Shown: piece by piece, positions 4,600 to 5,798 of the stretch
Numbering within the stretch: the first letter of the stretch is position 1
How the letters are laid out: the number at the start of each line of letters is the position of its first letter
Assembly: GCA_001790855.1 (NCBI GenBank)
Contig: MGDH01000021.1
Span: 1 to 7,235 of the forward strand
Length of the DNA: 7,235 nucleotides
Direction: 5' to 3'
Source of the DNA: Candidatus Schekmanbacteria bacterium RIFCSPLOWO2_02_FULL_38_14
GTDB lineage: Bacteria > Schekmanbacteria > GWA2-38-11
Notes under the pieces: model-generated
Seen by the model: only the letters and a program-made list of their open reading frames with translations
What the model was told of the DNA's origin: nothing
The model's database searches: none
Program-made: the position numbers and the translations under genes

Positions 4600-4689
4600 A
4601 GTGAATAGTGAATAGTGAGGAGTAGCTGCAGAGCATAGCTCTGCCTCAGAAAAAACTGACGACTGACAACTAACGACTAATTGCTGATT
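4600..4689. repeat. Phased 7-nt repeats flanking a hairpin, between proA and nadD
   Basis: On the left, AGT recurs every 7 nt at 4600, 4607, 4614 and 4621, within GTGAATA GTGAATA GTGAGGA. On the right, its complement ACT recurs every 7 nt at 4655, 4662, 4669 and 4676, within ACTGACG ACTGACA ACTAACG. Between them is a perfect 7-bp stem, GCAGAGC (4628-4634) with GCTCTGC (4638-4644), around loop ATA. The whole is thus an inverted arrangement of heptamer arrays. No T-run follows the stem on the + strand. The element fills nearly all the proA-nadD gap and reaches within a few bases of the nadD start. Its function is unknown; a dispersed small repeat is most likely. Confidence 0.6.
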
Positions 4690-4692
4690 AAT

Positions 4693-5358
4693 ATGGGCAT
4701 TGGTATTTTAGGCGGTACTTTTAATCCGATTCATTTTGGCCATCTAAGAGCTGCTGAGGAGGTTCGCGAAGAGTTTAATCTTCAAAAAATTATCTTTGTG
4801 CCTTCTGCTCAGCCTCCTCACAAAAACCTGAAAAATATAATTCCAAGCAATTACAGAAAAGAAATGGTTGAAATAGCAATTAAGGGGAATCCTTTCTTTG
4901 AAGTCTCAGCAATCGAAATCAACCGTGAAGGGAATTCTTATACAATAGATACCATATGTGATATTAAAAAAAACTATAAAGAAGATATTTTTTTAATTTC
5001 AGGTGTTGATACATTTAAGGAATTCTCCACATGGAGAAGCGTTGAGGAACTTGTTAAGAGTTGTCACTTTATAGTTACTTCAAGGCCCGGAAGAGACTTG
5101 GAGTCCCTTGTGAGTGTTCTTTCAAATACAGTAACCAAGCGTTTTCCATCAATAGTTTTCAGCTATGAGGGTGTCAAAGGGAGAAGTTCGGTTTTTAATA
5201 TTTCTTCTAGTTCTTACAAAATGTTTTCTATGGAAATCACAGGACTTGATCTATCTGCAACTGCAATAAGAGAGAATATTTCAAAGGGCAAATCAATAAG
5301 GTATTTGACTCCTGCTGAGGTTGAGGAATATATAAAAGAGAACAACTTATATAAATAG
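4693..5358 (+). CDS. nadD: Nicotinate-nucleotide adenylyltransferase
   Basis: NadD joins ATP and nicotinate mononucleotide to make deamido-NAD, a required step of NAD synthesis. From ATG at 4693 the product has 221 residues, normal for the family. The nucleotidyltransferase fold is shown by GGTFNPIHFGH (7-17) with the HxGH motif at 14-17, PPHK (41-44), SGVDTF (103-108), and the C-terminal LSATAIREN (187-195), the counterpart of the ISSTxIR motif. It ends with SIRYLTPAEVEEYI, typical of NadD. The start is chosen because MGIGILGGTFNPIH matches the family N-terminus; TTG at 4681 would add four residues. Neither start has a recognisable Shine-Dalgarno sequence, because the upstream stretch is part of a heptamer repeat. 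The gene order proA-nadD-rsfS is common. Confidence 0.95.
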   Translation: MGIGILGGTFNPIHFGHLRAAEEVREEFNLQKIIFVPSAQPPHKNLKNIIPSNYRKEMVEIAIKGNPFFEVSAIEINREGNSYTIDTICDIKKNYKEDIFLISGVDTFKEFSTWRSVEELVKSCHFIVTSRPGRDLESLVSVLSNTVTKRFPSIVFSYEGVKGRSSVFNISSSSYKMFSMEITGLDLSATAIRENISKGKSIRYLTPAEVEEYIKENNLYK

Positions 5359-5400
5359 TTTTTTATTAATTCAAATGCTCTAAACTGTTTAAATTCTATA

Positions 5401-5408
5401 AAGGAGGG
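5401..5408 (+). promoter_or_regulatory. Strong Shine-Dalgarno sequence that decides the rsfS start
   Basis: AAGGAGGG is the strongest ribosome-binding site in the window. Its GGAGG core (5403-5407) ends 7 nt before ATA at 5415, the optimal spacing. No ATG, GTG or TTG in any useful position lies downstream in the rsfS frame. The site therefore marks ATA at 5415 as the probable initiation codon. ATT at 5409 is too close. Confidence 0.75.
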
Positions 5409-5414
5409 ATTAAG

Positions 5415-5798
5415 ATAAAAAGCGTTAAAAAATCAGTTTCAGTTCCTAAGAATAAAGCCATTCAGGCTGTTCAGTTTGCGCTTGATAAGAAGGCAGAGGA
5501 ACCGGTTGTTTTTGATGTAAGAAAGTTTACTTCAATTGCTGACTATTTTTTTATCTGCCATGGAAATTCTGACAGGCAGGTAAAGGCAATAACAGAAAAT
5601 ATCATTGAGCAGTTCAAAAATACCGGAATAAAACACCTTTCAGCAGAAGGTTTCGGACAATGTACTTGGGTGATACTGGATTACAGTGATGTGATTGTCC
5701 ATGTGTTCAGAAAAGAAGAAAGGGATTATTATAATCTTGAAGGCTTGTGGGGGGATGCCACGAGAGTAAAAATCGCAACCGCTAAAAAGCAGGGTTAA
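5415..5798 (+). CDS. rsfS: Ribosomal silencing factor RsfS, apparent ATA start
   Basis: RsfS (Iojap/DUF143 family) binds ribosomal protein uL14 on the 50S subunit and blocks joining with the 30S subunit when nutrients are short. Read from ATA at 5415, the product has 127 residues. The core runs from KAIQAVQFALDKKAEEPVVF (14-33), through SIADYFFICHGNSDRQVKAI (40-59) and WVILDYSDVIVHVFRKEERD (85-104), to YYNLEGLWGDATRV (105-118). This is the whole family domain without break. The frame is open from 5370, after TAA at 5367. Between there and the middle of the domain it has no ATG, GTG or TTG; the first GTG is at 5670. The strong Shine-Dalgarno sequence at 5401-5408 points to ATA at 5415; ATT at 5409 and CTG at 5385 are weaker choices. 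Automated callers would miss or truncate this gene. It lies 56 bp after nadD, the usual neighbour. Confidence 0.9.
   Translation: MKSVKKSVSVPKNKAIQAVQFALDKKAEEPVVFDVRKFTSIADYFFICHGNSDRQVKAITENIIEQFKNTGIKHLSAEGFGQCTWVILDYSDVIVHVFRKEERDYYNLEGLWGDATRVKIATAKKQG

Follow-up and report, generated by a model that had tools for sequence, protein, structure and literature searches.

A putative AUA start codon behind a strong Shine-Dalgarno sequence in rsfS of a Candidatus Schekmanbacteria bacterium, with near-cognate rsfS starts recurring in other bacterial orders

The window (the whole 7,235-nt stretch of DNA that was analysed) carries rsfS downstream of nadD, with a distance of 41 nt from the end of nadD to the Shine-Dalgarno (SD) sequence of rsfS (Table 1). 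The protein read from the rsfS frame matched PF02410 with an E-value of 2.6e-32 over profile positions 3-98 of 98, and matched TIGR00090 over positions 4-99 of 99 with 116.6 bits (cut-off 56.9). These matches bore out the original prediction of a complete, in-frame RsfS domain. Judged by the two profiles, the protein is a full-length member of the RsfS/YbeB family, and its domain is intact and well conserved. When the protein was searched against genome contigs, only proteins of 37-50% identity were found, none of them a close relative. In E. coli and other species RsfS is known to bind uL14 and to prevent the subunits from joining, and it is important both for stationary phase and when cells pass from rich to poor medium (PMC3400551). 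Elsewhere in the window, between proA and nadD (4600-4690), we observed short repeated units (GTGAATAGTGAATAGTGAG ... CTGACGACTGACAACTAACGACTA). Similar GTGAACAGTGAATAGTRA units were present in at least two further places (L180 and L196) of a 341-kb sample of the genome.

Table 1. Coordinates of rsfS, its putative initiation signals and its upstream neighbour in the window
Feature	Position	Strand	Evidence
nadD, upstream neighbour of rsfS; start at ATG 4693 or TTG 4681	4681..5358	+	
Open frame containing rsfS, stop to stop, stop codon included	5370..5798	+	
Shine-Dalgarno sequence AAAGGAGGG, of which 8 nt (AAAGGAGG) pair with the 3' tail of the 16S rRNA of the same genome	5400..5408	+	
ATT in frame with rsfS, 1 nt past GGAGG; improbable start	5409..5411	+	spacing
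ATA, putative near-cognate start codon of rsfS, 7 nt past the GGAGG core	5415..5417	+	
rsfS coding sequence read from ATA, 127 aa, (M)KSVKKSVSVPKNKAIQAVQFALDKKAEE..., stop codon included	5415..5798	+	TIGR00090 and PF02410 matches
GTG, earliest canonical start codon of the rsfS frame, within the RsfS domain	5670..5672	+	

The rsfS frame contains no ATG, GTG or TTG until the GTG at 5670, which lies in mid-domain. A start at this GTG would halve the RsfS domain and cannot give the whole protein. The frame also contains a CTG at 5385, which has no SD. We found at rsfS two of the features that characterize an infC-type start, namely the absence of a canonical start with an AUN codon in its place, and a strong SD (8 nt) at the usual spacing from the ATA. 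The 16S tail of this genome is GGATCACCTCCTTTCT, to which AAAGGAGGG is complementary over 8 nt. Within this stretch AAAGGAGG occupies 5400-5407 and AAGGAGGG occupies 5401-5408, placing the ATA 6 nt past AAGGAGGG. The AAAGGAGG 8-mer occurred once in the window compared with a mean of 0.66 in shuffles, so its occurrence alone is not significant. The SD stands above chance because of its position, its match to the 16S tail and how seldom frames of this kind occur in the genome (2/262 ORFs, see below).

We considered whether the region before the domain might conceal another kind of start. In all frames of 5359-5470 the sole canonical codon was ATG 5375, which reads ATGCTCTAA and meets a stop two codons on. 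Therefore no single indel yields an rsfS start, and an upstream ATG concealed by a frameshift or indel was ruled out. A structured leader of rsfS was also ruled out, as the folding was no better than that of shuffles (z 0.81). The Rfam search of the window found no family and no known riboswitch.

The genome of the window comprises 2.68 Mb in 43 contigs and is 99.4% complete. In the 341-kb sample, which includes the window, codon usage marked 262 ORFs as coding. Only two of them, rsfS and infC, are clearly coding already ahead of their earliest canonical codon, and both showed an SD followed by ATA. One more candidate, a weak one, lacked an SD with a near-cognate codon. ATA starts as a general habit of this genome were therefore ruled out, as they were confined to rsfS and infC in the sample. 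The infC locus (L041 / L191, G000:C15 around 17216-17732) reads AGGAGGTGATATAGT-ATA-ATC-AAA and lacks ATG, GTG and TTG before the domain. As infC is the textbook near-cognate-start gene, its recovery serves as a positive control of the method, which beyond it picked out rsfS alone. Among the few tRNAs of this small sample, no dedicated odd initiator tRNA was seen. The frame, the SD and the rarity within the genome confirmed the original observation of an ATA behind an SD in a frame that lacks the three canonical codons up to mid-domain, and they support the predicted start there; rsfS almost certainly starts at AUA in the window.

We assembled a survey of 163 distinct rsfS loci from many families. 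A canonical start was absent in 15/163 loci, which came from 13 families. Eleven of these 15 had ATA, ATC or ATT 4-11 nt past an SD of at least 5 nt, compared with a mean of 2.6 in codon shuffles, where 0/5000 reached 11. Taken alone, the difference between rsfS (15/162) and nadD (1/50) in this first survey did not reach significance (Fisher p 0.13). Internal TTG codons inflate the 'nearest canonical codon' of nadD, which was therefore dropped as a codon-usage control. The rsfS loci were then aligned on the conserved DKKAED motif, and the most frequent start position was 15 codons upstream of it. The codons at this position across the 163 loci were TTG 28, ATG 20, GTG 3, ATA 12, ATC 7 and ATT 4, so that ATA, ATC or ATT occupied it in 23/163 loci against a background of 4.9% (p 5e-6). 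Among the canonical starts TTG outnumbered ATG, and weak starts appear to be broadly favoured for rsfS. A tree of 254 RsfS proteins showed at least 30 switches between having and lacking a canonical codon within 40 codons, a count taken solely as a sign of repeated switching, given the shortness of the protein and a definition that includes upstream codons present by chance. Two individual loci differed in spacing or codon: one (L138, G264) had ATT just 4 nt past AAAGGAGG, and another (L113, G071) had CTG 7 nt past GGAGG.

Near-cognate rsfS starts were conserved throughout some orders. The order of G073 comprises 43 genomes in 7 families, and 30 of its loci were fetched; one member is 'Deltaproteobacteria bacterium OFTM105', with locus L039 identical to that of G379. 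Its codons at the position 15 upstream of the motif were ATA 27, ATC 2 and ATT 1, with a canonical codon out of reach in 29/30 loci. The start column held 3 codons, compared with 4-15 in adjacent columns. On the same loci nadD started canonically in 30/30, which rules out ATA starts as a general habit of this order. The order of G062 showed ATC 21, ATA 4 and ATG 5 at the start position (30 loci), with the ATG loci forming one genus. This order is less clean, as many of its loci also had some upstream canonical codon and only 5 had none at all. All 8 rsfS loci in the order of G023 had ATT, two codons farther upstream and after an AAGGAG-type SD.

The order of G263 and G126 had ATA at the rsfS position in some families. 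TTA occupied this position in 12/29 loci, 7 of them without any canonical codon (L258, L261, L263, L266, L267, L279 and L284), and the TTA in these was preceded by a run of purines resembling an SD, in most cases GGGAGG or GGAGG. Two loci of one family (L268 and L281) had GTC after AGGAGG. The TTA and GTC codons of this order are the weakest cases as rsfS start codons. In the same genomes as the surveyed orders, infC mostly had AUN starts, with a canonical codon wholly absent in 18/27. Conservation on this scale indicates that near-cognate rsfS starts can be stable and need not be decaying.

For the closest relatives of the window we compared one same-family genome (70% complete) and two same-order genomes. 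No rsfS match was found in the same-family genome. The two same-order genomes start rsfS at TTG (AAGGAGGGAAACTTT-TTG) and GTG (GGAGGAAAGA-GTG). The original prediction had looked to an alignment of close relatives for a conserved ATA or ATT, and had held that relatives uniformly with ATG would speak against it. The TTG and GTG starts are not ATG and are neutral on the ATA, and the support came instead from the order-wide near-cognate starts in other bacteria. The start codon of infC was ATA or ATC in 4/4 genomes, these being the own genome, the same-family genome (G001, ATA) and the two same-order genomes (G003, ATA; G002, ATC). The ATA in the window lies 23 codons before the DKKAED motif, compared with 15 in the order-wide cases, and hence is not positionally homologous to them. 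An N-terminal extension is usual in the order of the window, where the TTG and GTG lie 31 and 38 codons before the motif, respectively. The ATA at the rsfS start was not seen in the same-family and same-order genomes, and may be either old or recent in this lineage.

Conserved near-cognate starts are, to our knowledge, known for very few bacterial genes, infC foremost, and E. coli pcnB starts at AUU. Similar to infC, with its AUU, AUC or AUA start and autoregulation by IF3, rsfS has an AUN start after a strong SD across distant bacteria. In the genome of the window both genes have ATA, and both products hinder subunit association. However, the product of rsfS is not IF3, so any control by IF3 would act in trans, and the rsfS start is near-cognate in some lineages only and UUG, AUG or GUG in others. 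Outside infC, Streptomyces sigR likewise has a conserved unusual start, GTC, together with an extended SD, and IF3 represses it in trans (PMC5472188). In contrast to rsfS, known here by its sequence, sigR was shown by experiment, and its codon is GTC rather than AUN. The AUA starts of infC and ccpN in S. aureus have an extended SD, cvfC1 of the same species starts at AUU, and the near-cognate sites tested there gave ~10-30% of the AUG yield (PMC13009471). The AUN start of rsfS is shared with ccpN, cvfC1 and pcnB, the extended SD and the reduced yield being those of the S. aureus reporters. These three genes, however, have other functions without a link to ribosome hibernation and a narrower taxonomic spread, as far as reported in PMC13009471. 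The same gene in E. coli also has a weak start, UUG (PMC10917681), but this is one of the three ordinary start codons and not AUN. Genes with a near-cognate start after a strong SD form a known class; our search of the open-access literature found no report of rsfS as a member.

We consider it quite probable that rsfS is translated weakly from the AUA at 5415 and that its level is capped via discrimination by IF3, as for infC. From the sequence we infer actual initiation at 5415, a weak yield, sensitivity to IF3 and a physiological role. Near-cognate starts function when a strong SD compensates. Here the 8-bp SD helix would hold the 30S subunit on the rsfS mRNA while fMet-tRNA would pair imperfectly with AUA, leaving initiation functional but weak. 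IF3 disfavours weak codon-anticodon pairs (PMC10158994). The output of RsfS would be expected to be low and to drop as IF3 activity rises, because IF3 discriminates against near-cognate codons. Such an arrangement would cap a blocker of subunit joining during growth, and would tie the RsfS level to the initiation machinery by making its synthesis IF3-sensitive. The AUA/AUC/AUU habit kept in whole orders suggests that rsfS output is deliberately restrained at translation initiation. It is likely that the weak start caps RsfS output, and we put forward IF3 as its physiological regulator as a hypothesis; a possible tie to initiation factors had already been suggested in the original prediction.

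A G-to-A error or a recent mutation had been regarded as the simplest alternative to the ATA start, but near-cognate rsfS starts recur in three other orders, and therefore a sequencing error or a lone mutation is unlikely. One substitution at base 5417 would give back a canonical ATG, the assembly is in 43 contigs and the two order-mates have canonical rsfS starts, albeit not ATG. However, an error in assembly or sequencing would need to fall on the start codon of rsfS, the only family apart from infC for which AUN starts were found here to recur among bacteria, in a genome where rsfS and infC alone show such a start among the 262 sampled ORFs, and we judge it very unlikely. A real but recent mutation might instead have weakened rsfS without regulatory meaning, as a step to gene loss or as local tuning of the kind met in laboratory evolution. 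Start-codon changes to ATA or ATT do arise under selection, for example in rsbW of Listeria (PMC13068326), and the ATA has no counterpart in the same-family and same-order genomes by which to date it. Against this, the rsfS domain is intact, a strong SD precedes the ATA, and near-cognate rsfS starts are stable order-wide elsewhere, which makes such a mutation an unlikely explanation. Initiation at another codon is hardly to be expected. The ATT at 5409, the AAG at 5412, the CTG at 5385 and the internal GTG at 5670 are all in frame, but the ATT and AAG lie just 1 nt and 4 nt from GGAGG, the CTG lies upstream of the SD, and the GTG would give half a domain.

The remaining alternative accepts the AUA start and differs from our explanation by leaving out IF3. 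The near-cognate codon would be used merely to keep RsfS scarce, with IF3 levels varying too little to regulate, and we regard this as quite possible though somewhat doubtful. The preference of rsfS for UUG in many lineages suggests general selection for low output, and one order frequently has TTA or GTC at the start position, outside the usual near-cognates. E. coli rsfS is expressed most in exponential phase (PMC10917681), a peak that fits 'kept low' better than 'starvation-induced'. Nothing direct stands against scarcity alone, but IF3 is known to act on AUN codons, and infC in the same genomes uses AUN.

Under weak initiation at AUA with discrimination by IF3, rsfS might be, after infC, the second widespread translation gene under IF3 control by its start codon, with lineages re-evolving the arrangement with different codons (AUA, AUC and AUU, and perhaps UUA or GUC); we offer this as a tentative reading that may well not hold. 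On the same reading IF3, separating the subunits from the 30S side, would control through start-codon discrimination how much RsfS is made to separate them from the 50S side. Gene callers restricted to ATG, GTG and TTG would probably overlook or shorten rsfS in such lineages, and calls of rsfS as 'absent' therefore need care. If true, a hibernation factor with a near-cognate start in whole orders would link the fidelity of initiation to ribosome silencing.
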